Shown: piece after piece, positions 2,659 to 55,035 of the stretch
How positions within the stretch are numbered: the first letter of the stretch is position 1
Layout of the letters: each line of letters begins with the position of its first letter
Notes under the pieces: generated by a model
The model's input: only the letters and a program-made list of their open reading frames with translations
Databases searched by the model: none
What the model was told of the DNA's origin: nothing
Made by a program: the position numbers and the translations under genes
From: Scenedesmus sp. ARA3
Lineage: Eukaryota > Chlorophyta > Chlorophyceae > Sphaeropleales > Scenedesmaceae
Length of the DNA stretch: 64,000 nt
Assembly: GCA_004335835.1 (NCBI GenBank)
Contig: RWJK01001568.1
Location: 1-64,000, forward strand
Direction: 5' to 3'

Positions 2659-5491
2659 ATGCAAGCGAAAGTTAGCGCTGCAGCGTCAGGGCAAAATGCC
2701 CGTGTCTCACGTGCTTGCGCAGCCCGCAGCCCTGTCAAGCAACTCAACAGCTCGTTTGTCAGAAGTCAGCAAGTAGCTACCAAAGTGGCATTCGCAGACA
2801 CTGCGGAGGCTGTGCGCGTGAAGAAAGAGCCTCAGAAGCGCTACATCCTGGGAGAGCTGCTGGGTTCAGGCACAGCTGCACACGTGCACGTGGGCACAGA
2901 CACAGCAACTGGCCTGCAGCACGCAGTCAAAATCCTGCCCAAGCGCAAGGGCACAAAAGACAAGACAAAGCTCATCAAGGCAGAGGTGAGAGAGGCGTGT
3001 AAGACTTTTTAAAGCGTTGTATGAGCTGCTGTTGGTGTGTTCTCTCTCTGGGATGGAAGTCAACACACGCTGCTGGTGGTTGACTGCCTGATTGGCAACC
3101 GCAACCAAGCAGCAGTGTCGAAAATAGCCTGCAACAGCAGCGAAGCTGATGATCTGCCCATTTATCGCACTACTCAGCACTCTGCAGCCTGCACAGCCAA
3201 CAGGACTTGTGCAGCGCACACGCCACTGAGAATGTTTGGTTAACCGCTGCTGTTTGTTGCAGTGGGGACCTCACCTTTCTGCTCTGTTCGACCATGTTTG
3301 CTGCTTGCAGATCCAGATCAGCAGCAAGCTGCGCTACTGCAGGCATGCGGTGCAGACAGTTGACACCTTTGAGGTGTGTTTGCAGCAGCTGAGCTCAGTC
3401 AAGCTGTGCAGCCGGTTGACGTTGCGCAATTGTGTTCAGCCAGTGTAAAGCCAGCAACAGGGTTTGTCTGGCGGATATCCAAGGCTGCTGTGCTGCATGC
3501 TGTTACGTTTTCAGCAATATGGCAGTGCTCGTCACGTGCTGCGGCATGTGTAACCGCTGTTTCAGCAACCATGCATTCGCGCGTACTGTGCCGCATATGC
3601 TGTGCTCTGTGATATCACCATCCCAAACACACGCCAGCCACACCCTGCACCTTCCTCTTAGCTTGTTGCACACGCTTCATACCTTCGTATTTGCTTCACA
3701 GGTCGCCGTGAAAGCTGTACACTGAAAGTGGCTGGGCTGTTTCTGCTTGCAGGATGAGCGCAACATCTACATGGTGCAGGAGCTGTGCTGCGGCGGCGAC
3801 CTGGCGGACCTCATGACGGTGGGTAGCACAGCACGCCATGTAGCTGTCCCTGCTGTCATTTGTAGCTGCATATTGTGGATTCTAAGCAGCTGACAGAACA
3901 CCCATCCAGCAGCAGCGGCGGGTGCCGGTGCTGGTGCTGCAGCCGGGCGTCTGAAGTTTGCTTGCGGCTCAAATGCAGCAGACCCGATGCCACAGCACAG
4001 CACAGCCCGGCCACCGCCCTCACTCTCAGTCACACCAACATCAAAGTACTGTACAAACAATACCTAAAATCCCTGTACAAACAACACATTTGTGTGTTGC
4101 TGCGTGTTCCTGCAGGCTCAGGAGGGCAAGCTGAGCCAGCAGGAGGCTGCCACCATCATGCGTTGCGTGCTGGAGTTCCTGCAGGACTGCCACGCGCGCA
4201 GCATCTGCTACGGCGACGTCAAGCCCAACAACTTTGTGCTGCGATGTGAGTAGCCCATTGAAACTGCAGTGAGGTAGCTGCAGCAGCAGGCACCATACAT
4301 TGCCGGGTGTCCGTGCTTGCACAACGAAACACAAGCATGGCGGCAAACATGTGCCCGCACTCTCGTGTCGCAAGCAGCAGCCAACATTTCCGCATCTGCC
4401 ACCCATAGTATTATCACCGCCAGCCGCTTGAGCAGCATGAAGCAGCCCAAGAAACATCTCATTAACAGCGCATCAATCCTCCCGCAGCGCTGTATCCCAG
4501 CATCACACACCTGCTGCACCCTCAACGGCAAATTCTTGGGTTGCCCTACTGACTATATCCCTGCCTTCCTTGCCTTCCTTGCCCTGCCTGCCTACCTGCT
4601 CCCCCTGCAGCACTCTACCCCAGCATCGCACACCTGCTATGCTCCTTGACAGCGAATTTTGAGGTTGTCTTGCTGACTGTATCTATGCCTCATTGTTGCC
4701 TTGCAGCGCTGTACCCCAGCATCGCACACCTGCTGGACCCCTCCAAGCCCCGCGGCGCACTTGAAGTGGTGGCGGTCGACTTTGGCTGCTGCCAGGAGCT
4801 GGGCGAGACGTGCCTGCAGGAGCCACACGTGACAGGCACGCCGCTGTACATGGCCCCGGAGGACCTGCGCGGCTGCCATGGCCTGGAGGTGGACATCTGG
4901 GCGGCAGGCGTCATGGTGAGTGAAAGTATACAGCAGACGCTTGCTGTGCAGGAGCTGCTTGTTTTGGTGTTATTAAAATGTGGTGCGCGCTAATGCGGAA
5001 GTGGACATGTGGGCAGTGTGCGTCATGGTCAGTCTAAATCAGCTGTTTAGTTGCGTTGGGATCAATGCTGCGCGTTCCAGCCGCGGCGTGCACGTGTTAC
5101 ATCAGCATTGTGCGTGTCAACAGCGTGATGGCTACATGCTCTATCGTTCTGCACTGACTGTCCGCTCGCTGCTCCCCGCCCGCCTCCCCTGCTTCCCTCC
5201 CTCTGTCTGCAGCTCTATCAGCTGCTCTCGGACCGCTTCCCTTTCTGGGACGTAGACCTGCACCAGATTGACTCCCTAGGAGGCATGGCCATCCGCGACG
5301 GCATCATGCACGGCCCTGTGCTGTTCCCCCTGCAGCCCTGGGCAACCGAGGTGCACCCCAGCGCACAAGACCTGATCATGCGCATGCTGCAGCGAGACCC
5401 GCAGAAGCGCATCAGCGCAGCAGACGCGCTGGCCCACCCCTTCTTTGCGCACGCGCTCGGCGCGGCGCCGGCTGCTGCTTCTGCTCGCTAG
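2659..5491 (+). CDS. Small Ser/Thr protein kinase (CDPK-like catalytic domain), 357 aa
   Basis: Exons are 2659-2985, 3311-3373, 3753-3818, 4116-4245, 4707-4915 and 5213-5491 (TAG); phases close exactly. The N-terminal 55 residues are rich in Ala/Ser/Arg/Val and could be a plastid transit peptide (inference). The kinase domain starts at RYILGELLGSG. It has the ATP-binding Lys91 in HAVKIL, a likely alpha-C Glu109, hinge VQELCCGGDL, DFG in VAVDFGCC, APE in MAPED, and subdomain IX in VDIWAAGVM. The catalytic loop reads CYGDVKPNN, so Tyr-Gly replaces the usual His-Arg before the catalytic Asp. No EF hands follow; the protein ends just after the kinase fold. It resembles CDPK/CaMK kinases. Intron 4 holds two decoy copies of the exon 5 start, and intron 5 holds one decoy copy of the exon 5 end. 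Confidence 0.87.
4498..4740 (+). repeat. Triplicated 3' splice-site/exon-edge array, kinase exon 5
   Basis: The first ~30 bases of exon 5 with their upstream CAG occur at 4498, 4611 and 4707. Only the last copy runs into the full exon. The spacer after each copy (about 65-80 bases, containing GCTGACTGTATC-like sequence) is also repeated, so the unit is about 96-113 bp. All three copies keep an AG acceptor. Confidence 0.9.
4894..5030 (+). repeat. Duplicated 5' splice-site/exon-edge, kinase exon 5
   Basis: The end of exon 5 (GAGGTGGACATCTGGGCGGC and following bases to 4915) is echoed at about 4992-5030 with several substitutions. The copied junction reads ATGGTCAGT in place of ATGGTGAGT, so a GT is still present. 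Confidence 0.75.
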
Positions 5492-13468: not shown

Positions 13469-13499
<31 letters not shown>

Positions 13500-15098
13500 T
13501 GCAATGCTGGCGAGGCACCAGATGTGCTACCATCCTCTAGCTGCAGTACTCAGACTGTGCTCTGCAGCGTAGCCTACATAACAGCAACAATAACAACAAC
13601 AAGATGCCAGAGGCTATAAGCACACGCTGCTGGCCCAAAGTCTCCTCCATGGAAGCAAGCACAGCAGCGTATCGTGTGGACAAACGGTGTCAAGCAAGCT
13701 CAGCCGTTCAGTGTCGCTGCATAGCCGATTTGCTTAAAACCCACTCAATCCATTTCACCAAACTGCCAGCTGCAACTGACCCCCGTCACCTGCGTTATAG
13801 CTGGTCTGTGTGTGGTGTTGCTGCTGGCTCACCTGATGCGCGCAAGTGCAAGTGTAAACTGCACATCTGAGCAGCACAACTAAGCAGCTACGCTCAGCTG
13901 TGCTGGCAGTCAAACGCGCGGCCACCACGTGAGGACCTCCTGAACAACTAGTCTGCATGCCGCAGCTTGCGCTCCCCAACCTATGCACAACACTTCATGT
14001 TCTTCTTCTCCTTTTGCATTGTCTCCTTGTTTTTTCCTCCTGCAGGCATCGTGAAGGCATCTCCTTTCCTGAAGATGTCTGAGCAGGACTTTGACGCGGT
14101 GCTGGCGGTCAAATTTTGCAAAATCTGCATGGCAATCCCCTGATCCCCAACTAGCGCACAACTTATCTGCTGTTTCTACTTCTTCTTCTTTGTCGTCTTC
14201 TTGTTCTGCTCCTCCTGCAGGCATCGTGAAGGCCTCTCCGTTCCTGGAGATGTCGGAGCAGGACTTTGATGCGGTGCTTGCTGTCAACTTTGCAAATTCT
14301 GCATGGCAATTTCCTGATCCCGGACCTGTGCACAACTCATCTGCTGTTTCTTCATCTTTTTCTTTGTCGTCTTCTTGTTCTGCTCCTCCTGCAGGCATTG
14401 TCAAAGCCTCTCCTTTCTTGGAGATGTCGGAGCAGGACTTTGACGCGGTGCTTGCTGTCAACCTGAAGGGCGTGTTCCTCACCTGCCAGGCGGCCGCGCA
14501 GCAGATGGTGACACAGGGCCGCGGCGGCGCCATCATCACCATGAGCAGCGTGAGTTGTTGTTGTGCAGCCGCTGGCCACATCATATGATTGGGTTGACAA
14601 AGTTGAGCAGCGTGAGTCGTGAGGCATCCTGGGCCAGGGCCCCTGAGCATGCGGCGGCGCCATTATCACCATGAGCAGCTTGAGTGGCATGTATAGTATC
14701 TTTGCTCTCTTAGTGCGTCAGTGCCATAACTTCCATCGTGAGATTTGGTGCATACAGCTGGTGGCCACATCAAATGATCAGGATGCCTGAGTTGGGCAGC
14801 GGGAGCCGTGAGGCATGGGTTGGGGCCCGTGGGGGGCGGAACGGCGCCATCATCACATGAGGAGCGTGAGTGAGACAGCTGGTGGCCGCTGCGTTGATCA
14901 CACGATCTGTACGACGAGATTGGGCAGCGTGAGCCGTGAGGCATCCTGGCCCTTACAGGCACTGCGGCGCCATCATCATCACCAAGAGCAGCATGTGTTG
15001 TTCAGCAGCTGGTGGTCGAATCAGGGCGAGTCAGGGGCCGTGGGGGCACTGCAGCGCATTCGTCGCCTTGAGTTGTGAGGTGCTCGTGCTGCTGCTGC

Positions 15099-15138
<40 letters not shown>

Positions 15139-16186
15139 AGGTCAACGGTGTGATGGCCATCCCCAGCATTGCGGGCTACAACGCGTCCAAGGGCGGCGTG
15201 GACAACCTCACGCGCTGCATGGCGCTGGCGCTGGCCCCACACAACATCCGCGTCAACTCCATCGGGCCCGGCAGGTGTGTGGGGTTGTACGGCTTGCGGG
15301 GCACCCTGCAGCTCAGCGGGAGAGTGTGTGTCAGACCTTTCAAAAGAATCAGTGCTGCTATGCACCTGCTGCGTCAACACAGATTTGCCGGCCTCGATGG
15401 CGTCCGATACGACAGAAATTGCCCACTGTGGTGCTGCTTGTGTGCTAAGCACTTGGTTATCAGTGCTTGCTGCTGCGCATTCTGCAGCATCAACCCAGAG
15501 GTGGCGGTGGCGGCTCCAGCATTGCTGCGCAGTGCACGTTTCACTGCCGTCTCCTGTGCTCGCAATGCTTGGCCGCTTTTGCGTGCATGTGTGTACAAAG
15601 TGCGTGCCTGCAGCATCAACACGGAGGTGCTGGCCTCGGTGGTGTCGGATCAAGCCGCCGTGCACTAGCTGCCGAGTCTTCTTGTGTGCTAAACATTTGA
15701 CGTGTTGTACTTGCTGCTGTACGCGCCGGCAGCATCAACACGGAGGTGCTGGCCTCAGGTGGTATCCGAGACAACAAACACTGCCCATGTCAATGCTGCT
15801 CATGTGCTAAGCACTTGCTGCGTTTGCTGTTGTGCTTGCTGCTGTGCGCGCTGCAGCATCAACACGGAGGTGCTGGCTTCGGTGGTGTCTGATCAAGCCG
15901 CGTGTCATTGCTGCTTGTGCTAAGCACTTGGTGTTTTGTACTTGCTGTTCCTCATGCCTGCAGCATCAACACGGAGGTGCTGGCCTCGGTGGTGTCTGAT
16001 CAAGCTGCCATGGCGCGCGTGCTGTCACGCACACCGCTGGGCCGCGTGGGCGAGCCGAGTGAGATCGGCAGCGTGGCGGCGTTCTTGGCGAGCCAGGACG
16101 CGTCATACATGACTGGGCAGATTGTGTACGTTGATGGCGGCCGCATGGCGCTCAACTACACAGTGCCTGTGCCGCAGCAGCAGTAG
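13060..16186 (+). CDS. Short-chain dehydrogenase/reductase (3-oxoacyl-ACP reductase-like), 264 aa
   Basis: Exons are 13060-13140, 13251-13452, 14395-14549, 15141-15274 and 15964-16186 (TAG); phases close exactly. This is a classical SDR with an NAD(P)-binding Rossmann fold: TGAAKGIG at residues 15-22, Asp40-type region VSDVDDS, NAG at about 93-95, and the catalytic set Asn117 (LAVN), Ser146 (TMSS), Tyr159 and Lys163 (YNASK). The C-terminal VYVDGGR motif is typical of the FabG/glucose-1-dehydrogenase branch. Length is normal for the family. No targeting peptide is evident. The substrate cannot be told; a ketoacyl or sugar/steroid alcohol substrate is equally possible. Three of its four introns carry exon-edge decoys, and the last exon is present twice. 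Confidence 0.92.
14046..14462 (+). repeat. Triplicated acceptor/exon-start array, SDR exon 3
   Basis: About 67 bases of exon 3 start, plus the pyrimidine-rich intron end before it, recur at 14046, 14221 and 14395 (period 175 and 174 bp). All three keep TCCTGCAG. The first copy diverges to AAATTTTGC after the exon part, the second to AACTTTGC. The third continues into the true exon. The 174-bp spacing between copies 2 and 3 keeps one reading frame open across the intron-like spacer. Confidence 0.95.
14521..14998 (+). repeat. Donor/exon-end array, SDR exon 3
   Basis: The exon 3 end (GCGGCGCCATCATCACCATG then AGCAGC|GTGAGT at 14549/14550) is echoed at about 14651-14685, 14835-14872 and 14962-14998. 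Spacer sequence containing GCTGGTGGCC and GTGAGCCGTGAGGCAT is repeated with it. Two echoes have lost the GT; the one near 14862 keeps GTGAGT, as does a partial copy near 14610. Confidence 0.85.
15488..16010 (+). repeat. Five-copy acceptor/exon-start array, SDR exon 5
   Basis: The exon 5 start (CATCAACACGGAGGTGCTGG and following bases) occurs after CAG at 15488, 15614, 15733, 15857 and 15964, spacing 126, 119, 124 and 107 bp. The last one is the functional exon. The spacer with GTGCTAAGCACTTG is repeated too. All five acceptors keep AG. Splicing to the second copy would add a short segment and then stop at a TAG. Confidence 0.96.
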
Positions 16187-16215
16187 GGCACACCGTGTGT
16201 TTGCAGCGGCAGTAG

Positions 16216-16431
<216 letters not shown>

Positions 16432-17842
16432 GGCGCATGCAGCGGTGCGGCAGCGAGCAGCAAGCTCGGAGTGGGTGATGCATTGCATCAGCATGACCCC
16501 GGCGATGCATCACAATAGCAGAGGGTGCGGCATGGTGTGCTGTCAGCCAAGCAGTTGTATCATAGCAGCATCATTGGCACTGCTAAAGCTAGTAGCGTTG
16601 CAAACAACTCAAGGATTGTGCAGCTGGGGGCTGCAGGCTCCTCAGGAGTCGTGTATCATACAGCTGGCGGCGTGAATGTAGACCATGCGGTTGTATGTTT
16701 GCAAGTTGAGCATGGGCAGGTCACCTGCCCAGATAGTATCTGGCCAGGCACAACACCACTGCAAGGCAGGCATCATGCATGTGTGGTGGCTGGTAGTTGC
16801 ATATGTACTATTGATTGAGTCGTAAATTGTTTTGATTTGGTGACCGGGTCACGACCTGAGCGTTGTGTCCATCACGCCCGACACAGTTGGCTTCGGTTGC
16901 CTGCTGTGCGTCGCTTGTGATCATGCAGCGTTGACATTGACTGACAGTTGTAGTGGTTTGTGCCGAGCATGCAAGCACTTCGCAGCAGCAGAAGATGCGA
17001 CCTCTGTATTGTTAACCAGCGCTGCTTGCAGAGCAGTGGTTTGTACTGTACAGTACGTGACATGTCACGGTGGACGTTCTGCTGGCTGTGCATGGTATGC
17101 ACTGCGCTGTAACTCAGCGTCCCGTGGCGTCCAAGTTTCCTTCTATACTGTTGAGGAGCTCCTAAGAAGACACAGCCGACAGCAAACTGCCCACTGGCAG
17201 CACCGGCTTCAAGCTAATAACGATTCAGGCTTGTGTGTGTTACACTTGAACAGTCACAACCCTGCGGCATATCGAACACGACAGCCCTCAACTAAGTCAG
17301 ACAAGCAGCTTGCCGCACCGAGTGCCACTCAGCAACACTTTGCAGTGCAGCACTGGGCGTTTGCTGTACACATGTGCGTAGTGCACGTGTGGCGTCATCA
17401 TGCTGATCACGCTACTCATGATGGCCAGCATTATGCAGTTGACTGCAGTCCCATCAACTGCCGTGCGGGTGGAGACATCACGCGTCTTGCGTGCCATGTG
17501 GCATCATGCAGGCAGTGCTCCACTCTGACACATCAACTGTTGCTGATAGTATTGCAAGGGACGCATGATCCCGTGTGCAGTGCTGCCCTCTGCAGTGCAT
17601 GCCCTCCGAAGCATAACTGAGTGTTGGCAGAGCCAGCTGCAGCCGTGCAGCAATTATGCCACTGTTAGCGAGTACGGCAAATGCACAACAACAAACAACT
17701 GCATTGCCATGCTGCGGGCTGTGCTGCCGAGCGGGCTCCCTGGTGACTGCGAGTCAATGCCGAGGTAACAATACGCTGGGATGCTGCGCCATCTGCAACT
17801 AGTAGCCGTGTATGGATGCTGCCGCCTCATGCAAAAGCTTCT

Positions 17843-17935
<93 letters not shown>

Positions 17936-25840: not shown

Positions 25841-28800
25841 ATGGATTCCCGAAGGTGGCAGGGGGATGGGCATAATGAGCCGCAGATGCAAGTTGTGGGC
25901 TTCCATGGTGAGCAAGCGTGGCACTACGTGTCTGCACCTGCTGTTCAACGCCAGCAACCTTGGGCGAGTTCAAACTGTAAATTATGACGATCGTTATGAA
26001 TTCTTCATGTTGCTGCAGTGGAGGGCCAGTCGCCGTCTCCCAGCCCGAACAGTATCCTGCAGGACTCGCTGCGCACCATCAGTGCAGGGAGTCCCACGCC
26101 TGTCATCATTCCGCCTCAGTTTCAGGTGGGATTAAGTTTAGAGACCAGCTGTAGGTCAGCTTGTCGACAGGGTTGCAATTAAAGCCCGTGCTGCTGCTGT
26201 GTGCTGCTGCAGAGTCAGGGTGGCACAGCCCGCGCAGAGTCTGGAGCAACTAGGAGCCTGGTGAGGCCTTCCGAATGCATGTAACAGTAAATACTTAATG
26301 AGGCTACAGTGGCAGCCTAGATCCTGTCGCACTGTATGTTGCTGACCTGCTTCTGCTGTTTCTCTGTTCTGCTGTGCAGGCACCAGAGTTTGCTGCAGGG
26401 TGAGTTACAGCGCTTCCTGCGAGATGCTGCATGTGCACAAGCGTTTCCGCGCTATTGCTGTAGCCACCTGAAGTATGTGGCAGCAGAGGCAGCGTGAGCA
26501 TTAGTGGAGCAAGCATACATATGTATCGTTTGCATGTGCCCTGCAGTTCTGGCAGCACGGGGCACTCTTGGAAGTTGTACTGCAGCAGTTGAAAGCAGTT
26601 CAAGCAAAGGGCAATCATCTGAAAACTATAAATTCTGCTCCCACTAGTGTTGCTGCTGGCACCGCCTGTTGATGGATGCGTCTCACCCGCAACTGCAGGC
26701 AGCAAGGCATTGCCAGGACAACATCTAACACTGACAGGAAGCAAGGTACGCATCATGCAGCTGCTGCAGTGGGTGAGCACGCTCGCATAACAACATGCAA
26801 CAATTTTACCATCACAGCTGCACAGACAGCAGCCTGCTTGTTAGTGCCTTCAGCAGCAACATCTTCATCAGCCAGTAAGGTGGCTGGGCAGTGCTGCAGA
26901 ATTCTGCAAAACATTTAGTTCCGGATCGGGTGACGTTAACCAGCAACTGGAGGATAGCGCATTGATTCTGCTGCTGCTGCTGCTGCTGCTGCTGTTGATT
27001 GCCTCGCAGGCGGCCAGCAAGGCACGGTGCTGCTGACAACGCCAGCGCCTGTGTCTCTCACACTACCGCCAACAGCTGCACACGCAGCAAAGCAGCAGCA
27101 GCAGCAGCCAGGCGCGGCTACGGCAAGCAGCAGCGATGCGGCAGCTGCCAGCAGTGCACCTCCAGCAGCTGCAGACAGCAGCAGCACTAGCAGCAGCAGC
27201 GGCAGCCAGGCCAAGCCGCCGGTGCCACCCCCGGCAGGCACAGCAGCAGGATCTGCAGCAGCAGGACCTGCAGCAGCAGCAGCAGATGCCGCAGGTAGCG
27301 CTGTCACCAGCAGCAGCAGCAGCCGGGAAGGTAAGAAGGCGGCTCCACCAGAGGGTCAGAAGCCTCCCCCAAAAGTGCCAAAACCAGCCTCAAAAGCAGA
27401 GCGGCGGGCGCTGCAGGAGGCGCAGCGAGCAGCAAAAGCAGCAGGCAAAGGCGGCACTGGTGCTGCTGCTGCTGCTGGCAGCAGTAAGGCCAGCAGTGCA
27501 GCTGGTGCGGACAGCGCGGCAGCAGCAGCAACGGCAGCAGCACCGGGTGCAGGGAAGCCTCCTAAGGCCCCGGGATCCTACAGTGCTGCCGGGCAGGGTT
27601 CAGCAGCAGCAGCAGCGGCTCAAGGCTTAGGCCGGTCAGCATCAGCCGGCGGCGGCTATACATCAGATGGCGCTGGCAGCGCGGCGGCTGGCAGCAGGGG
27701 CGGCAGCAGCAGCAGCGGCGCCGCCGCTGCCGGCCGGCCTGCTGCTGCTGCTGCTGCTGCTGCTGGCGGCGGCAGCCACAAGGCTCGGGGCCCTCTGAGT
27801 GCGCTCAACTCGGCCGAGCTGTTTGCGCACCTGCAGCAGTACCGGCCTGTGAGTGTTGAGCGAGTGCTGCGGAGTAAGGAGGGTGGCAGCGTGCACCCTG
27901 CTGTGCTGGCGCTGGGGCTGCGTTATGCTGACGGCACCATCAAGGGCAGCACTGCACGCTGCGTGGCTATGGTGAATGCGCTGTGCCAGGTGAGCAGGGG
28001 TGGCTGCAGCAATGGCAAGGGAGTGGTTCACGCACTGATGGCACAGTCAGTGCGTGCCATGCGTGTCACGGTGCTTGAAGGTGCGCAGAACAACGGCTGC
28101 ATACAACAGGGCTGTGCCAGGTGGGAAGGGATGGCTGCAGCAATTGTGGTGCCATGCGTGCCATGCGTGTAGCTGTGCTTGAAAGTGCGCAGAGCAACGG
28201 CTGTATATGACAGCGATGTGCCAGGTGACACAAGGATGTTGATGCACAGTGGCTGCAGAGGTGCAGTGCAAAGGGAGAAAGAGTGTTGCACCCATTTTGA
28301 GCGTGAGGGATGCGAGGTGTGAGGTGCTACGTCGTATGACAACACTCTCACGATTGTAAAGCGCTCATGCTGAAATCGCCAAGCGCTCTGCAGGAGCTGC
28401 ACTTGGGAATTGGGGTGCCAGAATCAACCTTGTAGTGCAGAGGCCGCCGCCAGGGCTTGCTGCCAGGTTGGCATCAGCCTGTTGTTTGCTCGCCTGTGCG
28501 GTAGCACAACAGTGCTTTTGTACTGCGTTCTGTCCTGTGCTGCCCTCGCCCCTCCAGGTAATTGCAACTACCGCACCCCACTGGGCAAGAGCCTCGTGCT
28601 CCACACCATGAGCTTGCTTCTGGGTTCGAACCTGCTGTTTGTCTTGTCGTGTGCTGCATGCCACTGCTGCAGGTGACTGCGGACTACCGCACCCCACCAG
28701 GCAAGAGCCTCATGCTCCACACCATGAACTTGCTTCTGGGCTCCAACTGCTGTATGTCTTGTCGTGTGCTGCCTGCCACTGCTGCAGGTGATTGCGGACT

Positions 28801-31163: not shown

Positions 31164-32851
31164 TGCTGCCAGGCTGACATCCCCTGCAGCTATGCCTTCC
31201 TGAGCGGCATCAGCGCCACCATGCGCGAGGTGTCCAAGGTCATGCTGGGCGCAGCAGCAGTGCTCAGCAACGGCACGGTGCTGGGCCGAGTGGGCAGCGC
31301 TGCTGTGGCCATGTGCGCGGCAGCCAGCAGCAAGGTGAGAGTTCTTCTCATTTTCTTCTTCTCTATTTCTTCTTCTCTTTTTCTTCTTCTCTTTTTCTTC
31401 TTCTTTTTCTTCTCTTTTTTGCTCAATGAGCCTGCCCAAACGGGTGAGGTCACCCGTGTGAGATTGCGATGCGCTGTAGGATGTGTGCGTGTTTTGTTGG
31501 AAGGCAGGTTGCATTATGCATGTAAGCAATCGAGCAGTTGCGGCTGTTTTGGATGCACCTGACTCGATTGTAAGATGCAGATGTACAGTAGGGAGGCAGG
31601 GTGAGTGGGGATTGTAGTGTCCATGGCTGTGGCTGGCGGGTTGCGGCGATGCTCTGCATTGTATGGAATGCATCACTTTGCTTTGTGGATGATGTCATGC
31701 TGGATGTCATCTTTTGATGAAGCTGTTTTGTTGAAGCAGCAATGTGACAGACCACCAACGGCACGGGGCTGGGCCACGTGGGCAGCGCTGCTGTGGCCAT
31801 GTGCGCGGAAGCCAGCAGCAAGGTAAGGCCACAACCAGTTTAGGTCATCTGCTTACATGTATAACGAAAACTGATATATTCTTTTTTCCACATGTCTACA
31901 ACGTGGTGCAGGATGTGCGCGGATGTTGTGATGAAGCAGATCTGTCAGACAGTAGGGATTGTAGTTAGTGTGGCTGGCGGGCGTGTCTGCAATGCTCTGC
32001 ATTGCATCAAATGCGTCACTTTGCTTCGTAATGACAGTCGTGCTGCGTGGCATCGTTGATGAAGCTCTGCTGAAGCAGCTGTCGCAGTACAAGTAGCTGT
32101 GTGCGGTGCGTTGAAGCGCTTAACATGCTACGTCGCGGATGCTGCATGCGCCTGGTGCCTACCATGTCTGGGCCGTTGCTTCCACTTCCACATGCCTTGT
32201 CATCACCTGTGCTGTCACTAACATGTTACTAACATGTTACATGACGGTTACACTGCGCTGCAGCCTGTGCTGGTATGCTGTGAGGCGTTCAAGTTCCACG
32301 AGCGCGTGCAGCTGGACAGCATCACACACAATGAGCTAGGCGATCCGGATGCGCTGGCACATGTGCCTGCCTTCGCGCCGGCGGCAGCAGCAGCAGCAGC
32401 ACACGGCACGCCCGCAGGTGGGTGCTGGCGCTGCTCATGATCTGTGCTGCTCTGCATGAGCAAGTGCTGTATTCATGCATCGTTTGCGTGGGTTGTGTTG
32501 TAGCAGCAGCAGTAGCAACTGCAGCAGACACGCCAATGCAAGGTTGGCTTCAGCCGACGCGGTAGCCGTGCTAGCCGCCCCCACTTTGTGCCCAGCAGCG
32601 TGTGCGATCGCCTCGGCCCGCTGGCTCACTGGTGCTTTCCTGCAAACTTTCCTGCAGACCCCGAGCGCGGCGTGCTGTCCCAGAAGCTGGCGGGCTGGCG
32701 CGACAGCCCGCGGCTGGCTCTGCTCAACCTCAAGTACGATGCAATGCCTGCGGAGTATGTGACCATGGTTGTCACCGAGTTTGGCATGATTCCGCCCAGT
32801 AGCGTGCCGGTGATCCTGCGCGAGTTTTCTGAGAGCGCGCAGATGGAGTGA
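25841..32851 (+). CDS. Translation initiation factor eIF2B, delta subunit, 735 aa
   Basis: Thirteen exons with closing phase: 25841-25907, 26019-26125, 26213-26260, 26380-26399, 26699-26745, 27010-27989, 28788-28882, 29823-29893, 30421-30569, 30781-30894, 31173-31334, 32264-32417, 32658-32851 (TGA). eIF2B is the nucleotide exchange factor for eIF2; delta is one of its regulatory subunits. The first ~370 residues are low-complexity Ala/Gln/Ser/Gly, with a Lys-rich patch near [20 protein letters not shown], a form common in delta subunits. The conserved C-terminal half follows: [114 protein letters not shown]. All IF2B-fold landmarks are in order. Exon 4 is only 20 nt. Six introns contain exon-edge decoys. 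Confidence 0.95.
27975..28240 (+). repeat. Donor/exon-end echoes, eIF2B delta exon 6
   Basis: The exon 6 end (CTGTGCCAG|GTGAGC at 27989/27990) is echoed near 28113-28145 (CTGTGCCAGGTGGGAAGGGATGGCTGCAGCA) and 28213-28240 (ATGTGCCAGGTGACACAAGG). The spacer with CGTGCCATGCGTG and GTGCGCAGA.CAACGGCTG is duplicated as well. Both echoes keep CAG|GTG. Confidence 0.85.
28558..28835 (+). repeat. Triplicated acceptor/exon-start array, eIF2B delta exon 7
   Basis: The exon 7 start recurs at 28558, 28673 and 28788 with a 115-bp period. The spacer (CCACACCATGA.CTTGCTTCTGG, then TGTCTTGTCGTGTGCTG) repeats too. The first acceptor reads CTCCAG, the second and third CTGCAG; all are usable. The third leads into the true exon. 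Confidence 0.95.
28847..29545 (+). repeat. Seven-copy donor/exon-end array, eIF2B delta exon 7
   Basis: The exon 7 end (from CATCAACGCCAGCGTGGACT to GATGCAG|GTGGGG) occurs in full at 28848-28882 and is echoed at about 28959, 29078, 29188, 29297, 29407 and 29504, spacing 97-119 bp. The spacer holds GGTTTTAGGGTTGGGACGGG-like sequence. Copies 2-5 keep CAGGTGGG; copies 6 and 7 have CACGTGG and CACATGG. Confidence 0.97.
30086..30470 (+). repeat. Four-copy acceptor/exon-start array, eIF2B delta exon 9
   Basis: The exon 9 start (AGACGGAGGAGGCTGCCAAG and following bases) is found at 30086, 30205, 30304 and 30421. The last is the true exon. Copies 2-4 keep CAG; the first has CCCG and has lost its acceptor. 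The copied exon part grows from about 35 to 53 bases towards the true exon. Confidence 0.95.
30535..30690 (+). repeat. Duplicated donor/exon-end, eIF2B delta exon 9
   Basis: The exon 9 end (GGCGACGTCATCCTCACCTA to TCGCAG|GTGTGT) is echoed at 30656-30686 with a few substitutions and an intact CAG|GTGCAT. The intervening 80 bases contain TTATAACA repeats. Confidence 0.88.
31250..32095 (+). repeat. Long duplication spanning the eIF2B delta exon 11 donor and intron
   Basis: About 65 bases of exon 11 end are echoed at 31757-31821 (ending AGCAAG|GTAAGG against AGCAAG|GTGAGA). Intron sequence at about 31605-31745 (CTGGCGGGTTGCGGCGATGC) matches 31970-32090 (CTGGCGGGCGTGTCTGCAAT). The unit is roughly 350-490 bp, the largest exon-edge copy in the window. 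Confidence 0.85.
31346..31421 (+). repeat. Polypyrimidine (TTC/TTTC)n tract just after a donor
   Basis: A nearly pure TTCTTCTTCTC/TTTTTC run begins about 12 bases after the exon 11 donor. It is a simple repeat; its position at the 5' rather than the 3' end of the intron is unusual for a pyrimidine tract. Confidence 0.9.
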
Positions 32852-41578: not shown

Positions 41579-44500
41579 ATGAACGGTACCTCAGGAGCAG
41601 GAGAGGTCATCGCCTCGGCTAGCGAGCAGGTGATGCGTGATCACTTATGAAGCACTAGGATGAACCTCCACAAGTGTTATTATACCCATGGGGTTGCTGC
41701 TGTGTTCATGCACGCACAGCAGGAAGAGCAGTGCTGTTGCCTGGCACCTGCTGCTGCAACTGTGCAATAGCCTCACCAGATTAGTTCACACCTGTTGCCG
41801 TGAAAAGGGTGCCGTTTACTTGAAGCTACAAGATTCCCTGTACATTCTTTTTGGCAGTTGAACATGCCAGCTGCACTGCCCAAGCACGCACCTGTGTTGC
41901 TTGCCACTGCCAGTTTCCACTGCTCGCATCCAGCGGCCGTGCATGCATGCGATGCCACTCTGCATCATGCCTGCCTGACATAATCAACACGTCACAAAAA
42001 TCGTTGCCACGTTGACCTACTGCGCTGCTGTATGTGTGCAGGTGCTCAAGCGCATCAATGAGCTGTATGGTGCAGGGCTGTCTGCAGGAGCCCCAGGGGC
42101 CATCGGCCTCAAGGGAATTGCTGATGCACTGGGGCTGGCCAAGCAGATTAGAAAGCCACGCAAGAAGATCAGGTTCGTCCTGTTGCTTGCAGGAATGGCA
42201 TGCTGTGCAGCAGCGTGTCGTGCGAAGGCTGTTGACTTACATACAGCAGGAGGCAGCGCAGCGCAGAGCATATGTCGAAGGCAGCAGGCTGGCCTCTCGT
42301 CATGAGTCTGCAGCAGCTGATGCTGGACTTTAAATGTGTCTGCGCGCTGTGCTGCTGCCCGCTGTTGTGTCTGCTGCAGTGTCATGATTGTGGGCAACCA
42401 CAGCGCAGGTGCGTGGCACTGTGGGCAGGCAGAGCTGGCAGGCAGGCAGAACAGGCAGGCACAACAGACAGCAGCGCAGCATTTGCTGGCGGCAGGCTGC
42501 TGCTTGCAGGAAGCTGCGCAGCACCAGCGCCAGCTGACACAGTAATGACAGCTCAGCATATGCGTCAAATGATGGCCTTGCTTTACCCACGATGGCGGCG
42601 GCAGTGACTAGGCAACATCAGCTCTCAGCTTGACTTGGTGCTGCTGTGATGCCTGAGCAAGGAGGCGGTAGCTTGCAGCTGTGTTGGCTGGCCTCAGCAC
42701 ACCGCCGCCACTTTGACTGATAACACAAACAGTGGCACACAGCCTGCAGCGTGTCGAGCAGTAGTGATGGTTGTTTCTGCTGACGCCAAGGAGGATGTGC
42801 AGTAGGATGATGCAGAAGCAGGGCTCAACAAGCTGACGCAGGCTGATGAGTTGTGTGCTTGCCATGTTTTGCAGGCAAGTCATCGTTCATCAACTGGTAC
42901 ATTGGCGAGCGTGTTTGCAAGACAGGCGTGGCAAGTGAGTCAGGCGGTACAATTTGTACCTACAGGTGTCGGGGTGGAGCAGCAGTAGCAGGCTGGTTGG
43001 TTTGGTGCACCACTTCCTTTTTGGAACGATGAGCACGTCAGCAGTACAGGTGCTCAGCCAGGCATCAGCAAGCAGCAGCTGCAAGCAGCAGCTGCAGGCA
43101 GCATGAGTGACACATGTTGCTTGCAGACAACGCTGAATCCTAGCCACAACAGCTTACTGTGTAGCTGATGCTCCTGCTGCTGCCGTGCTGATGCTGATGG
43201 TGTGCAGTCGAGACCCGCGGCTTCATACTGTGCACAAGCGGCAGGTGCGCCTGCTGTCTACCTGTTTCTGCAACCTTAGTAAAATGCCATTACATAATCT
43301 GTGTTTACACATCAAGCAGCAGTGCCACTGCCAGACACGGGCAGCTTGCACCTGATGCTTGGTTATTGCGTCTTGTGCTAGGCTTGTATGTATGCTGACT
43401 CATCACCATGCTGTCACGTGCAGCCTCTTACACGCATAGGGAATGCCATGCATGGCTGCCACCTCCGGCGCTGCCAGCATCCTTGAGGCATTTGCTATGT
43501 CATCTGCTTGCAGGAAGCTTGCAGTCAACGTTTCTTCCTCTCCTGTCATTTTCAGCCTTTTGCCTCTCACTCAAAACTGCAACTCCCCTCCCCTACCCTA
43601 TGACCTGCTTGCAGGAAGCGTGAGACGTTGACCGGTGACGCCACCATCCGTTATTTTGACTACCTTGAGGACCTGGGGGGCTTCCAGGGGCTGCTGCCCA
43701 ACCTGTTCACGGAAATAACAACCAGCACGGAGCGCTCTTTTGCCTGCGTGGACTTTGTGGACACACCTGGGCTGGTGGACGGCGACATGAAGGTGTGTGC
43801 GGCAGTTTGGTTGAGCATCGCTGCTGTGGCAAGCGTTGGCGCTGGGTGCTGCTGTGTCTGTGGCTGCATGGACTTTATAAACGTCTGGGCTGGTGGACGG
43901 CAAATGAAGGTGCGTGCAGCAGCTTGGGAGTTCCGCTCCATGGGTTACTCACGGTGTATGGCATTTGTCTCGTTGCGCACATACTGCTCGGCCTGTGTTT
44001 CAGCATTGCGGCTGGCGGGTTGCGCGTGTGAGTATCTGCGCCCACCTGCACACTACGGGTGCACTGCCGCCCTTTCTATTATCGGCCACTTCCCGTGTGC
44101 TGATTGTTGCTTGCTGCGCCCTGCAGTACCCCTTCCCTGTGAAGGACAGCATCATGTGGATGGCTGACCACGTGGACCTCATCCTGGTCTTCTTTGACCC
44201 GGTGAGCGGCCAGCAGCAGCAGCAGCAGCAGCAGCACGGCACCACCAACAGCATACGAGCATGCAGAGGCGTCATCGCCTGCTGGTCCCATGCCTGCATA
44301 AAATGTCGTGACACTGCATATGGGGTTGTATCGGCCTTCTGTTGCTGTCAGCGAGCAGTTGTGGTGCAACTGACGAAATGGGAATGCCAGCATTGGTCAG
44401 GGGTGCTACGACAAACACCAATGCAGTGTTAGATGGAGTGATCGCATACACGCCAAGCTAGCTGGACCCTGTTGCATAGGCTTGCGCTGACAGCAATGCT

Positions 44501-44874: not shown

Positions 44875-44915
<41 letters not shown>

Positions 44916-47111: not shown

Positions 47112-49607
47112 TTACTTGCTGTACAGTCGGCCCAGGATCACATCCTTCTCCGCATGGCCTGTCAGCACCGCGCACTGCAGCGCCGGCTGCGCTGCGGGGC
47201 TGACCACCGCCTGCAGCTTGGCTGGCAGCGGCGTGGGGCGCTTGAACTCGGTTTCAAACACCGCGGGATAGGCCTTGGCAGTGTAGCCTGCAGCAGCAAC
47301 AGCAGCAGCAGATGCAGCAGCAGATGCAGCAGCAGATGCAGCAGTTGGCAGCTGCTGCAGCACCATGTGCTTGCCTGGCACCTGAGACCCAACCATGATG
47401 TTTGCCACCTGCGTTGGCTAACGCTGGCTCCACCCGTGCCACCAGGTACGTCCCAGCACTTGTTGCAGCAGCGGCTGCAGCACCCCTCCATGCATTTGCC
47501 TTTGCAGATGCCCGTTCAAAACCCAACAAATATTGAGGGATACGCCACTAGCCCACCTGCGGTGGCCAGCGCTGCTTCCAGGCGTGCCACCAAGCACATC
47601 GCGTGCACAATGGGCCGCTTGAAGCTGAAACAGGGGGCAGGCACTTCTTATGGAAACTTAGAACCTCGCTCACCTGCATTGGCCAGCTCTGCTTCGAGGC
47701 ATGCCACCAGGTACATCGCGTGTGCAATGGGCCGCTTGAAGCCAAACAGCCGGCTGGTCAGCGAGCTGAGGTGGATGGGGTTGCGGTCGCCACTCAGTGC
47801 GCCGTACGCGCGGCCGGCGTTGCCGGGGACAGACAGGTTTGCCAGCAGCTGCCAGGTTGGGGGCGCCTGCAAGTTGGAAGTGTGTTTGGTATGGCCGGCA
47901 GCATTATTTGATGTGTTTTGCGAGGAAAGGCAAGGGGTCTGGTTGTTGGCGCGGCCAGCGTTGCCCAGGACAGATATGTTGGCCAGCAGCTGCCAGGCCG
48001 GGGCGCCGCAGGTGATTTGTGTCCAATGCGTGAGGCTTAGGCGGAGCAGGCGTGTATGGAAAGGGCGGTTTATGCCATGCCTACGAGATCATCTGAATGT
48101 TTGTTGCACTTGGCGAGAATCAGCATGCCTCACTGACACCTACAGCCGCTAGGCAACAGCTCTCAGTCCGATAAATCAGCTGCTCACCTCGCCCGTCTTG
48201 CTCCCTCCCCCGCCCCGCTTGGCTTTTGGGTTGATGACAATCACTGTCAGCGAGTTTACCCACACCTGGTCACCTGCAGACACACAGCATCCAAGCACCA
48301 TCAGGCGTTGCGGCCTTGTTTCACAAAAAAAATGACACAATGACACATGGTACATTGGCCCACACGTGGTCACCCGCGGACACAGAGCACCAAGACAGCG
48401 CCACCAAAACTGGCACAATCACTGTTTGCAGACGCAACAACATGCAATTTGGCAGGATAACAAACTTGAAACATGGCTGATTCTGCGCTAATGGCATGTT
48501 TTGCTGCATCCACCTTTGCTGTCTGTGCCTGTGCACACGATGTGGATCTCAATGTGGCCCTTCTCATTGCGCACATAGTTTGGGTCCACGCTGGCACTGC
48601 AACCAGGCAGCAGCAAGCATAGCACGGCAATCATATGCAGCACAAGCAGCGGCAAGCGCAGGCGCCAAAGTCATCGCAACACAGCACAGCGTCCTGTGTG
48701 CACTGTGTGGACTCAGCACCAACAGCATAGGAACGGCTGTGCGGTGGTGAGGCAATACAGAGCACGTGTACCCTACACAAGCAGGGCTACACCATGCAAG
48801 CAGCACTGGCAACAAATAAGCAGAGGTACTGGTAACAGCCAAAACAATGTGCTGGCGCTAGCATATGCAAAAAGACAGGCTGGCACTGGCAACAGTCTTC
48901 TGGCTAATCTCAAGTGACTGAGGACCACTTATGCTGATCCAGCACTGGGCATTAAAGCATGCATTCATGAATTGTGCATGAGTTGTGCATGGCGTTGTGC
49001 CGGCTCACGTGTAGGTGAGCGCCTCATCAGATCTGATGGGCCTGCTCATGCTGCTGCTGTTGCGCGCCAGCACAGCACCCAGCACGTTGAAGGGGAAGTC
49101 CCTACGGAGCAGGCAAAAGTTGCAAGGAGTGCAGAGTCATTCACAAGAAAAGAAACCAGGTGTAAGCATCAGAAAAGAGATCCCTGCAGGTGCCATGGGA
49201 GGCCATGGCATGACATGCACAAAGCTGTATGTTGTTATGCGTTGGTATGCAATGCTAGGTGACAAGGAAACAAAACGTGTGTGACACATGACAAGGCATT
49301 TTAATTTTGAAGTGCCAGCATCCGCATCCTGGTCATAAAGACAGTGGAGATGCCAGGGAACTTTGATGAGCGCGGCGTCATGTGCATCCGTACTGCAGCT
49401 GCAGGATACGCTTGCTGGGCTGCTACTGGTAGAAAGCCTCGGCAGGCAAGTGCAACATGATGTTGCCCTGGTCCCCTGTGTGCTGCACTGTGAGTGTGCA
49501 TGCTGCTGCTGCTGCTGCTGCATGTGCACGTGCCTCTCACCTGTGGCTCATGGCCAGCATGGACAGCCTGAAGGACTCCACAAAGGGGTAGCTGAAGGGC
49601 ACCTGAC

Positions 49608-49666
<59 letters not shown>

Positions 49667-51020
49667 TAAGCGCATGGCAACACGCATCAGCACCAGCAGC
49701 GCTGCTTCATAGACGAGCACATTTCCAAGCAGCCCTCCATGAGGTTGCCATATGCCAGCTGTCACAAGGATTGCAGCCCATTGATCAGACCAGTGTCCTA
49801 GTACGTACATGGGCGCTGCTGTGTGCACTGGCGCTTGCACTTCCGCATGTACAATGCAGCAGTGCTGCTGCACTTGGCAGATAAGGTCAGTGCCTTTCCA
49901 GCAGCGCAATTGCAATGAGCATCAACTGGCGCGACAGGCTGCAAGTTCAGCTTCTACCGCCCAGCTGCTGGGTGCAGTGGTTGTGCTGCTTTTGCTATGC
50001 TGGGTCAGCTGCACCCATGATGCTGCTGCTGCTGCTGCTGCTGCTGCTGTGCTGACATGTACAGGCTGATGCACCCGGCCGTCCTGCTGCTGATGTCAGG
50101 CTGTGGCCGCAGCATGCCGCACCTGCTGTGGCACAGCCTTGTAGCCTGTACGTATGGCACTGATACACAGCCGTGTCCTGCTGCTGACACACTACTTTGT
50201 GATGTGACAATATGGCAGCAGGCATGCCGCACCTGTTGTGGCACAGCCTTGTAGCCAACAAGCTTGAGGAAGGCTGCATAGCGGCTGGTGCTGAAGGCTG
50301 CAGGCGCTGTCAGCTTCACCTGCAGCAGCACAGTTGTGTGCACAGTGACACAGACAGTGCAAGAGTGGGGCCGGTAAAGTGATGCGCGTTGGCTGCGCTG
50401 TCGCAGTAAGGGTGGGTGGGTCAGGACATTGCGATGCGCTGCCACAGCTGCTGCTGCAGCAGCACTTCCAGGAATATGTCCCAGAGGTTTCTATTTATGC
50501 GTTAATGTGCCAATGGTGACAAGCAATCAGGGGGAAAAGCAACAATGTAAGCAGTACTGCAGGTGTGCAACTGCTGTTGGAAGACTGCCCGAGTGCACTG
50601 CAGTACTCAGCACCTGGTTGCTTGCGCTAGCACGTGCATGCCGTTAATGCTGCTGGTTCTTGCCCGACTGTGTCTAGTTGTGGGCAACACTAGAACACCA
50701 GGGGTGCAAGCAAATCCCACACAGCCCACTGCTGTGGGACCCAAACAACCTTCAAGGCCAACTGCCATAACATTTGCTCAGCGACGCTCATCTCGAGATG
50801 TACCTAATGCAATTGTTGTAAGTATCACCTGGATAGGCTTTCCCTTGAGATCTGCGGGTGCTTTCTTCCGCGACAGCGCACTACGAAGCAGCTGCAGATA
50901 CAGGAAGCCTAGAGAGGGCCAGCCCGGGAGCTCCGCAGGGACATCTGGCGGGCAACGAAGCGTTATAACTAGTCCGAGCACTAATACTGCGCCTGCAACC
51001 CCGATCAACAAAGGCAGCAT
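47112..51020 (-). CDS. MaoC-like double-hotdog hydratase/dehydratase, 352 aa
   Basis: Eight exons on the minus strand: 50829-51020, 50233-50319, 49541-49602, 49009-49101, 48514-48596, 48188-48273, 47674-47866, 47112-47374 (TAA). Total is 1,059 nt with all phases closing. The N-terminus has one membrane or signal segment (LLIGVAGAVLVLGLVIT). The first hotdog spans RYAAFLKLVGYKAVPQQ, YPFVESFRLSMLAM and DFPFNVLGAVLARN. The second has the hydratase-2 motif in YGALSGDRNPIHLSS, with Asp228 and His233 at the catalytic Asp-x4-His spacing, then LFGFKRPIAHAM and EFKRPTPLP. MaoC enzymes hydrate trans-2-enoyl-CoA or dehydrate 3-hydroxyacyl thioesters in lipid metabolism. The terminal exon encodes an Ala/Ser run from a CTG repeat. 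Several introns hold decoy exon edges. Confidence 0.87.
47407..47745 (-). repeat. Three-copy donor/exon-end array, MaoC-like exon 7
   Basis: Sense-strand exon 7 end (ACCTGGTGGCATGCCTCGAA to AATGCAG|GTGAGC, true donor at 47674/47673) is echoed at 47554-47624 and 47407-47460, spacing 117 and 147 bp. Each echo keeps GCAG|GTGG and would read VARLEAALATAG or VARVEPALANAG, close to the true VACLEAELANAG. Confidence 0.92.
47945..48012 (-). repeat. Decoy copy of MaoC-like exon 7 start
   Basis: About 60 sense-strand bases (GCGCCCCGGCCTGGCAGCTG then CTGGCCAAC) repeat the exon 7 start (true start 47866). The upstream acceptor reads CTGCGG instead of TTGCAG, so it is probably dead. Confidence 0.88.
48335..48382 (-). 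repeat. Decoy copy of MaoC-like exon 6 start
   Basis: The sense strand reads GGTGACCACGTGTGGGCCAA, matching the exon 6 start GGTGACCAGGTGTGGGTAAA (true start 48273). The site before it is CCGCG rather than CTGCAG. The copied intron end (GTGTCCGCG against GTGTCTGCA) is also recognisable. Confidence 0.85.
49609..49665. repeat. (CAG)19 tract
   Basis: Read on the sense strand of the MaoC-like gene it is (CTG)19, ending at the CTGCTGCGTCAG acceptor of exon 3. Confidence 0.95.
50104..50145 (-). repeat. Decoy copy of MaoC-like exon 2 end
   Basis: The sense strand carries GGCTACAAGGCTGTGCCACA then GCAG|GTGCGGCATGC, nearly identical to the true exon 2 end at 50233. The donor is intact. The copy lies about 120 bp into the intron. 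Confidence 0.92.
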
Positions 51021-52282: not shown

Positions 52283-52342
<60 letters not shown>

Positions 52343-52392
52343 NNNNNNNNNNNNNNNNNNNNNNNNNNNNNNNNNNNNNNNNNNNNNNNNNN

Positions 52393-52447
<55 letters not shown>

Positions 52448-53925: not shown

Positions 53926-55020
53926 GCTTTCTAAGTTCACGATCTGCAGCCGGTGACTGCCTGGTGACACTGAACTCAGGACGGCAGAAGTTTTCAGCAT
54001 CAGCCGATGTTTGAATAGAGTACAGCCATATTCACGGCCACGTACATCATGCAGACACCTGGCGCTGTTGGGTGCTAGGGTTGAGAGGGGTGCGACAGGC
54101 GGGCGTGCAGACGCTCGCACGCGTATGCAGCGCTTGGCTGCTATGTTTTTGTACATAGAATACAAAGCACGCTTCTAAAGCAGCAACGTGCATCCAGCTG
54201 GTCATTGAATGTGTGGAGTCCTGCGCTGCATGCAGCTGCGCAGCTGCCAGCAGTGCTGGCATGCTGTTGATGATAATAATAATAGTGATAATAATAGTCT
54301 TCTTGCTGTTGATGCTGTTGATGATGCAGGACTGCTGTGTCTGCAGCTGCGCACGCACCCAAAAAATGGTTGTGACCGTGTGAAGAGACCGCACAATTAC
54401 CATCCCGCTGGCAATTGAGGGTGCGTAGAACTCAGCGCAACAAGTGTTATCTTCATCATTGCACTGGAATCTAGCCACCAGAATCTCTAGATATGGTCAC
54501 TCGCCTGCTTGCAAGCCGCTTATTTGTTGAACAAAATGCAGTTACTCTTTGAACAGCATGTGCACGTCATGGCTGGATTCACAGGTACCAGTTTCAAAGT
54601 TCATTAACCAACATCAATCAGTCAACAACAGAATGCAAGGTGCCTCTATCAACAATGCACCATGCGGGACAACAGCAGTACTGCTGTATCGATCATCGCC
54701 AAACGAATCATGCACGGATGCAAACTATAAACATCTTCCAGCAGTGAAACCAGCCTGGTCAGGGACAACAGACTGAGCCCAATATAACTTCGAATTCACA
54801 CAGTGTGACAAACATAGGATGCATGTTGCATATTGCAACCCTGTGCATGCAAGTTTGCAACAGCTTAAACAACAACCGTGAGTTCAACTCTGATCCCGCT
54901 TCAGAAGCGCTTGGTGGGCCAACGTGACAAACGTAGAACGCATGTTGCGGAAATGCAAGTCAAAGCATGCATGGTTGCAACAGCTTGAACGACAGCCAAT
55001 CATCCAATGTTGATCCCGCC
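53926..55020. other. Spacer between the two barrel genes
   Basis: It contains the promoter side of copy 1 and the 3' flank of copy 2. A tandem repeat at its upper end (about 54800-55032) carries a second version of the copy 2 gene end. A short TTATTATTA-type run lies at about 54269-54300. Confidence 0.55.
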
Positions 55021-55035
55021 TCAAAAGCGCTTGAA
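54800..55035 (-). repeat. Duplicated 3' end of barrel gene copy 2
   Basis: The region around the stop codon (plus strand GATCCCGCCTCAAAAGCGCT) recurs ~116 bp away as GATCCCGCTTCAGAAGCGCT. It is flanked on both sides by similar spacer (GTGACAAACRTAGRAYGCAT). In the copy the stop triplet (sense TGA) is preserved but the upstream coding sequence is not. Confidence 0.85.

Follow-up and report, generated by a model that had tools for sequence, protein, structure and literature searches.

Intron growth is usually ascribed to mobile elements. Whether introns can also grow through serial copying of the exon edges that flank them is the question raised by a stretch of 64,000 nucleotides of the green alga Scenedesmus sp. 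ARA3 (GenBank assembly GCA_004335835.1, contig RWJK01001568.1, positions 1 to 64,000 of the forward strand), which in its full length is referred to as the window. A sequence-only reading had proposed that splice junctions in several genes of the window are repeated inside the adjoining introns, the copies (termed echoes here) having arisen by tandem duplication across the junction. The exon-edge echoes were confirmed as real and as extending beyond the window, and they suggest an unusual mode of intron growth. Plain tandem duplication does not account for all of it: the exon part of an echo is far better kept than the intron part, the outermost flanks are mostly without detectable similarity and the splice signals of acceptor echoes are intact.

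The arrays of the window are listed with the boundary of the real exon and those of the echoes. The names GTPase, MaoC-like and barrel are labels of the sequence-only reading; a Pfam scan of the GTPase exon matched no family. The adh_short Pfam matches of the three tested SDR exons abut in profile positions.

4477..4740, + strand: kinase exon 5 acceptor array; real start 4707, echoes 4611 and 4488, both with AG
4890..5040, + strand: kinase exon 5 donor echo; real end 4915, echo boundary 5027, GT kept
13952..14462, + strand: SDR exon 3 acceptor array; real start 14395, echoes 14221 and 14046, period about 174
14516..15023, + strand: SDR exon 3 donor array; real end 14549, echoes 14679 (TT), 14865 (GT) and 14992 (AT)
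15353..16012, + strand: SDR exon 5 acceptor array; real start 15964, echoes 15857, 15733 and 15614 (AG) and 15372 (TG)
16049..16437, + strand: SDR last exon array at the edge of the coding sequence; 144 bp including the stop codon duplicated, 91%, spacing 245
27980..28227, + strand: eIF2B-delta exon A donor (27989); echoes ending 28120 and 28224, exon part about 10 bp
28531..28882, + strand: eIF2B-delta exon B (28788-28882) acceptor array; echoes 28673 and 28558
28845..29569, + strand: eIF2B-delta exon B donor array; echoes ending 28993, 29112, 29223, 29332 and 29443 (GT) and 29540 (AT)
30086..30475, + strand: eIF2B-delta exon C (30421-30569) acceptor array; echoes 30304 and 30205 (AG) and 30087 (CG)
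30540..30700, + strand: eIF2B-delta exon C donor; real end 30569, echo ending 30685 (GT)
31265..32079, + strand: eIF2B-delta exon E donor; real end 31334, echo ending 31822, unit 488
43741..43927, + strand: GTPase donor; real end 43792, echo ending 43909 (GT), 1-bp deletion in the exon part
47405..47757, - strand: MaoC-like donor; real end 47674, echoes 47557 and 47409, GT kept
47808..48006, - strand: MaoC-like acceptor; real start 47866, echo 48006, AG lost
50091..50256, - strand: MaoC-like donor; real end 50233, echo ending 50123 (GT)
54805..55033, - strand: barrel gene array; stop codon and 3' flank duplicated, 75%, spacing 119

Two of the checks suggested by the earlier reading, a self-comparison and shuffled controls, were run on the window. 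Comparison of the window with itself (blastn) resulted in 40 repeat pairs, every one in direct orientation, and a repeat scan at local distance gave 15 clusters, one of which is a 20-bp minisatellite. Sixteen hand-marked junctions were then analyzed by a gapped 36-mer scan, using 20 single-base shuffles of each intron, scanned at a coarser step, as control; the kinase, SDR, eIF2B-delta, GTPase and MaoC-like regions were also read directly as sequence. Echoes could be identified at 14 of the 16 junctions. These 30 echoes scored 16 to 36 of 36, the shuffled maxima being 10 to 15, and AG or GT was retained in 24 of them, which agrees with the earlier statement that most decoys keep their dinucleotide. 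At two junctions, the eIF2B-delta exon A donor and the MaoC-like acceptor 48273, the gapped scan detected no echo. For the former, blastn aligned 27980-28013 with 28111-28144 (91%); at the latter, an echo was visible by eye only.

The recurrence of exon edges with their splice sites inside introns was thus borne out, as were the involvement of both strands and the order of the copies, in which the real acceptor comes last and the real donor first. The clearest case is exon B of eIF2B-delta, where the upstream copies comprise the first half of the exon with the acceptor and the downstream copies the second half with the donor. At the exon E donor of the same gene, more of the intron is homologous (31604-31737 and 31951-32079). 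Of the at least 17 affected junctions that had been counted, 15 are backed as splice junctions, to which two stop-codon edges are added. In correction of the earlier reading, the arrays of the SDR last exon and of the barrel gene cross a stop codon and the 3' flank and no splice junction. Since stop-codon edges are also struck, the process is not strictly about splice junctions, as had been assumed.

For the occurrence elsewhere in the genome, a gene-rich and non-random sample was used, consisting of 20 loci of about 10 kb around kinase genes (199 kb), 18 short kinase regions and 20 kinesin genes. Echo arrays were found at sampled loci, as the sequence-only reading had suggested. Repeats (E<=1e-3) were present in 11 of 101 Pfam-defined introns, compared to 2 of 505 shuffled introns. 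Anchored families were located at 8 acceptors and 4 donors of these introns, and interior pairs in four introns, two of them weak and one being the inner pair of an anchored array. In a stricter test of 77 exactly modelled introns, 5 of 154 edges had an echo at 26/36 or better. The controls at this threshold gave 0/154 for reverse complements, 0/154 for introns of other genes, 1/154 for inner exon pieces and 2/225 for intron pieces. Introns with an echo were longer (median 387, n = 4) than those without (260, n = 73). Chance similarity was ruled out because of the shuffled introns in the window and these controls at other loci, and an assembly error through read duplication is unlikely, as copies and spacers differ.

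An annotation-blind scan of the 20 loci resulted in 56 repeat clusters. The window (15 clusters in 64 kb compared to 56 in 199 kb) is therefore not exceptional in this respect. Exon edges were taken from a coding predictor; of 45 held-out kinase exons it found 44, and 9% of intron bases were called coding by it. A predicted exon edge was found at 40 of the 56 clusters, whereas the mean of 2,000 permutations was 18.1 and the maximum 32. Among the arrays with a spacing of at least 85 bp, 39 of 47 overlap one end of a predicted exon. If duplications fall at random and are filtered by purifying selection, 9.8 are expected; a 2-fold better detection at exon edges raises this to 16 and a 4-fold better one to 24. 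The excess over these three models is significant (P 1.5e-19 to 6e-6). Of the 8 arrays without an anchor, one (L018 5559) was classed as a donor echo in the analysis of Pfam-defined introns. Clusters of shorter spacing (<85 bp) are unanchored in 8 of 9 cases. Anchoring at exon edges is thus well above chance placement (39/47, about 10 expected), and an equal frequency away from junctions, which had been named as a counter-test, was not seen in the sampled loci. Inverted local repeats at the threshold used for direct repeats numbered 0 in 263 kb. Arrays were found on both edges of 5 exons (1.9 expected), their number per 10-kb locus ranged between 0 and 7, and the largest array counted has 7 copies at one junction with a spacing near 120 bp.

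Two other loci may belong here as well. A 3.3-kb kinase locus outside these counts (L007, G000:C1086:29516-32815) contains 14 local repeat pairs, and positions 172-198 of the kinase hidden Markov model (HMM) match twice in it. In a chaperonin gene (G000:C1492:3212-3642, 9663-9993), the HMM ranges overlap (45-72 then 45-100; 325-376 then 341-376), as would be expected from one acceptor and one donor echo.

The anatomy of an echo was determined from 44 good anchors, including those of the window, after 8 of 52 anchor rows, in which exon matches numbered below 21 of 30, had been dropped. Real junctions were placed by the coding predictor and a splice score; the SDR stop-codon array is among the 44 anchors, the junction of the array at 47808 is misplaced by about 18 bp, and at L023:986 the copy taken as real may be an echo. 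The medians are 45.5 bp for the exon part, 7 bp for the matched intron part and 140.5 bp for the spacing. The spacing is between 92 and 148 bp in 26 of 44 arrays, with a minimum of 92 and values up to 488 bp. AG or GT was retained in 39 of 44 anchors.

The position-wise comparison used the best echo of each of 37 arrays; the stop-codon array and arrays without an ungapped 27/36 copy were left out, and the ungapped copy finder under-counts gapped echoes. On the exon side, identity is 0.88-0.99 over the 30 bp nearest the junction. At intron positions 6-8 it is 0.58, compared to 0.29 between unrelated arrays, and at 30-50 bp it is 0.32-0.34, compared to 0.26. For the 17 best echoes, the values are 0.93-1.00 on the exon side and 0.50 at intron positions 6-8. 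A residual homology on the intron side could be detected, which exceeds shifted windows by 7.87+-1.86 (28/35 positive, z 1.61; 29/37 positive in an earlier form of the test), and 18 of 63 real-echo pairs have an obvious intron-side similarity in an ungapped test. Beyond the exon-side end, the shifted-window test shows no homology (1.49+-1.27). Neighboring spacers differ by 13.8% mismatches and 4.6 gaps per 100 in the 20 alignable pairs, whereas the exon parts of echoes (n = 70) differ by 10.2% mismatches; a first comparison of spacers by global identity had a null near 71% and was set aside. An array thus looks like an edge followed by repeated units of spacer and edge, and its outer flank lacks similarity, either from the start or by loss. 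Among the longest pairs listed for 71 clusters, 95% identity over a length near the spacing was found for the short-unit minisatellite only.

The differences between real and echo exon parts are mostly synonymous (162 synonymous, 125 not; pS 0.22, pN 0.05). The raw ratio of the non-synonymous to the synonymous rate is 0.24 (64 echoes); corrected for the mutational spectrum it is 0.29 overall, 0.17 for inner and 0.43 for outermost echoes, where inner echoes share one real exon and are not independent and the reading frames come from the coding predictor. The raw ratio looked like a possible coding constraint on the echoes. Of 18 gaps in echo exon parts, 16 are frameshifting, so the echoes do not look translated. 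Where an array has at least two echoes (14 arrays), changes present in one echo only are synonymous in 44 and non-synonymous in 50 cases (26.5 and 67.5 expected without constraint). The patterns not confined to one copy are all located at codon position 3 (13/13), as snapshots of a selected exon would show. We read the echoes as probably untranslated records of past states of the exon. Among the splice signals, AG is absent in 2 of 32 acceptor echoes and GT in 4 of 34 donor echoes. Donor echoes score 5.7 and 5.6 bits, somewhat below the real donors (7.2 bits; random GT -0.1).

For splice-site choice, eIF2B-delta is the gene that could be checked. Its spliced protein matches solved eIF2B-delta (E=8.5e-91), and the last 363 aa are identical to the deposited 450-aa Tetradesmus obliquus protein OEZ85_004019, the N-terminus of which is encoded further upstream and differs from the first exon modelled here. 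Judged by this identity, the genome studied is that of T. obliquus or a very close relative. Each array of the gene is located within one intron of the model that agrees with the deposited protein over these 363 aa, and no new intron was created by the echoes in this gene. The deposited protein uses exon-side sites only and avoids all echoes of its gene, in agreement with the proposed use of the outermost sites. When 13 echoes were tried as 16 alternative splice positions, a premature stop resulted in 15; the remaining one, donor echo 28993, would add 111 open nucleotides. The choice of the last acceptor and the first donor is what would be expected from a pairing of sites across the exon. Full-strength decoys next to real sites constitute a natural test of exon-side site choice and of exon definition in an alga. 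A recursive splicing through AG^GT was considered and dropped, as few echo exons start with GT (by eye). In 66 modelled introns, an AG^GT context was found in 21 and a downstream exon starting with GT in 25, which might fit an earlier gain of introns at AGGT sites.

Direct duplications straddling an exon edge occur at many loci, in the window and in the sample. The explanation favored here, to which about an even chance is given, combines junction-spanning tandem duplication with a preservation of the exon half. Short tandem duplications straddling exon edges would arise repeatedly in the T. obliquus genome and would add copies of exon edge and splice site to the adjoining intron. They would be tolerated because splicing uses the site on the exon side, the acceptor that comes last and the donor that comes first, a choice in keeping with exon definition; the geometry of the arrays is that of exon-side use and the one deposited protein agrees, which suggests this mechanism. 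Arrays would lengthen through further duplication of units of spacer and edge; such unit-by-unit growth is suggested by the similarity of spacers inside arrays. The exon half would be preserved as the real exon is and the intron half would decay, so that echoes persist. The likeliest cause would be that the real exon, which is under selection, now and then serves as template for local gene conversion or re-copying. The net effect would be a neutral growth of introns that leaves snapshots of the exon's past sequence. With regard to the duplication across the junction proposed by the sequence-only reading, this interpretation is partly supported. The exon-side breakpoint and the residual intron-side homology fit it. 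The uneven repetition of the unit, with an exon part much better kept and a step at the splice junction, does not, nor does the outermost intron flank, which is mostly without similarity even at 95-100% exon-part identity.

Several observations weigh against the favored explanation. Simple decay leaves both the identity step at the splice junction and the intact signals on unalignable flanks unexplained. In the ungapped test, 29 of 35 outermost flanks are without detectable similarity, compared to 16 of 28 inner ones. The pyrimidine content of the tract in acceptor echoes is 0.70 (outermost) and 0.71 (inner), against 0.71 for real acceptors, 0.65 for ordinary acceptors and 0.53 for the intron interior, and the strength of acceptor echoes is 8.6 and 10.6 bits (real 9.6, ordinary 10.0, random AG -0.55). 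Such full-strength signals do not fit old, decayed intron halves. Local conversion explains the exon half and not the intact pyrimidine tracts, and the copied part is no less identical beside the junction than in its middle, which disfavors a conversion that needs flanking homology. With one echo taken from each of 37 arrays, the relative omega is 0.33 (bootstrap 0.23-0.45), which lies between full constraint and the 0.5 expected by us for unconstrained snapshots of a selected exon. The exon-side breakpoint is less clean than the shifted-window result suggests, since the cross-array comparison beyond the exon-side end is weakly positive (mean z 0.50, standard error 0.17). No freshly born duplication of a whole unit was found among the longest pairs listed for the 71 clusters. 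Finally, since only 5 of 154 edges reach 26/36 in strictly modelled introns, the prevalence at an average junction is a few per cent, below that of the window.

Another, though unlikely, explanation would be pure neutral noise, in which random tandem duplications occur anywhere, noncoding duplicates decay fast and the remainder is detected mainly at exon edges held by selection. The frameshifting gaps, the struck stop-codon edges and the outermost-echo omega of 0.43, near the neutral 0.5, agree with it, and by our arithmetic the retention of AG or GT in 39 of 44 anchors is what an identity of about 94% predicts. One tolerated duplication across a junction is also described for the potato RNA-dependent RNA polymerase (RdRp) gene in PMC4974935. 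Yet noncoding duplicates would, again by our arithmetic, have to vanish roughly 10 times faster than exon-anchored ones. By our reasoning, plain duplication with neutral decay predicts an at most two-fold difference between exon and intron, whereas even the 17 best echoes drop from an identity of 0.97-1.0 to 0.5 by intron positions 6-8; the pyrimidine tracts of outermost echoes are also uneroded. Selection on splice signals and exon-edge enhancers, and not on coding, would explain these signals if the echoes were functional decoys whose sites the spliceosome reads for tuning or decay. What is conserved is indeed what the spliceosome reads (exon edge, AG or GT, donor consensus and acceptor signal), while the spacer is free. 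This is considered improbable, as the echoes have no known use, the use of nearly all those tried would truncate eIF2B-delta, the number of arrays varies from 0 to 7 per 10-kb locus, and the barrel paralogue near 51996-52242 is without a stop-codon array in the scan.

The identity step at the splice junction would follow directly from an exon-specific insertion or rewriting by boundary-aware copying (RNA- or cDNA-templated or linked to splicing), in which the spacer was never a copy. The strictly direct orientation and the 45 of 63 pairs without intron-side similarity in the ungapped test, 5 of them with 36/36 on the exon side, fit such a process. It would not bring the strong pyrimidine tracts that acceptor echoes have of their own, intron-side similarity is present in the other 18 pairs and as a weak residual signal across the set, and stop-codon edges were copied along with the 3' flank. 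An insertion of the exon alone from a template is thereby weakened, and this reading is held to be quite improbable. Scarcely better placed is a variant in which a boundary-aware process, splicing-linked or RNA-templated, repeatedly writes an exon edge of about 45 bp into the intron and refreshes old copies. If true, this alga would assemble its introns one copy after another from their own exon edges, with splice signals in working order, and earlier exon sequence would be on record in the echoes. Mixed haplotypes, in which edges of a divergent functional allele or homeologue were joined next to the real ones by recombination or assembly, have the smallest chance of all. The synonymous-rich differences and the intact splice signals would fit two functional lineages. 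Against this, one array has 7 copies at a spacing near 120 bp, donor echoes precede acceptor echoes in one intron of locus L019, unlike in concatenated haplotypes, and 59 chaperonin exon matches on 11 contigs read as single copies of about 11 genes. A search of the 87.3-Mb, 1567-contig assembly with the flank plus edge of 2 echoes gave local copies only (2/2) and no non-local copy.

Tandem duplication is described as a route to intron gain in PMC3443670. For the potato RdRp, PMC4974935 describes a duplication across an intron-exon boundary that made a new intron and inherited the branch site, pyrimidine tract and 3' splice site. The algal echoes are likewise direct tandem duplications of sequence bearing splice signals. 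They differ in that existing introns lengthen, with no new intron in the one gene checked, that up to 7 copies were counted at one junction, that donor and acceptor edges are both affected, that many of the sampled loci are involved, and that the exon half is kept much better than the intron half. For Daphnia, short direct repeats from the repair of staggered breaks are described as flanking newly gained introns (PMC3443670). Direct repeats around unrelated filler resemble the order of edge, spacer and edge, but the algal repeat is an exon edge of about 45 bp, and the spacer has a working-looking splice signal.

A comparison with further known systems shows similar partial matches. Introners are intron sequences multiplied through a genome, whereas the repeated part here is the local exon edge and both flanks searched were local. 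Intronic minisatellites, or loci with a variable number of tandem repeats, form head-to-tail arrays of varying copy number, which the echo arrays resemble; they lack the anchoring at exon edges with the real exon outermost. In mutually exclusive exons, exon sequence is copied beside itself, whereas an echo contains part of an exon only, with the breakpoint inside the exon. A copy of a whole exon with both splice sites was not encountered; the exon part has a median of 45.5 bp, and past it there is no clear homology, although the cross-array comparison is weakly positive. The nearer donor echo of the MaoC-like gene (47557-47625, - strand) is preceded by a pyrimidine-rich CAG and resembles a complete cassette exon by eye. 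Serial junction echoes were not described among the matches listed in a search of the open literature, which leaves subscription journals mostly outside. Local, exon-edge-focused duplication seems to lengthen introns in many genes of this alga. The mean intron length of 462 bp in T. obliquus, compared to 230-302 bp in Raphidocelis subcapitata, Monoraphidium neglectum, Chromochloris zofingiensis and Chlamydomonas reinhardtii as tabulated in PMC5966456, is in line with intron growth and no proof of it.

Within the window, two adjoining barrel-type paralogues are located at 51924-56915 (- strand), which are 71-74% alike in three stretches. As the stop-codon duplication is present in only one of them, it either postdates the gene pair or has disappeared from one copy. 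Runs of the trinucleotides CTG/GCA are frequent, e.g., at 15087-15138, 17843-17943 and 49608-49665, and 50 N in a row (52343-52392) are located within a long GCA repeat. In several introns, a CTG/GCA run directly precedes the acceptor and by eye seems to form its pyrimidine-rich tract.

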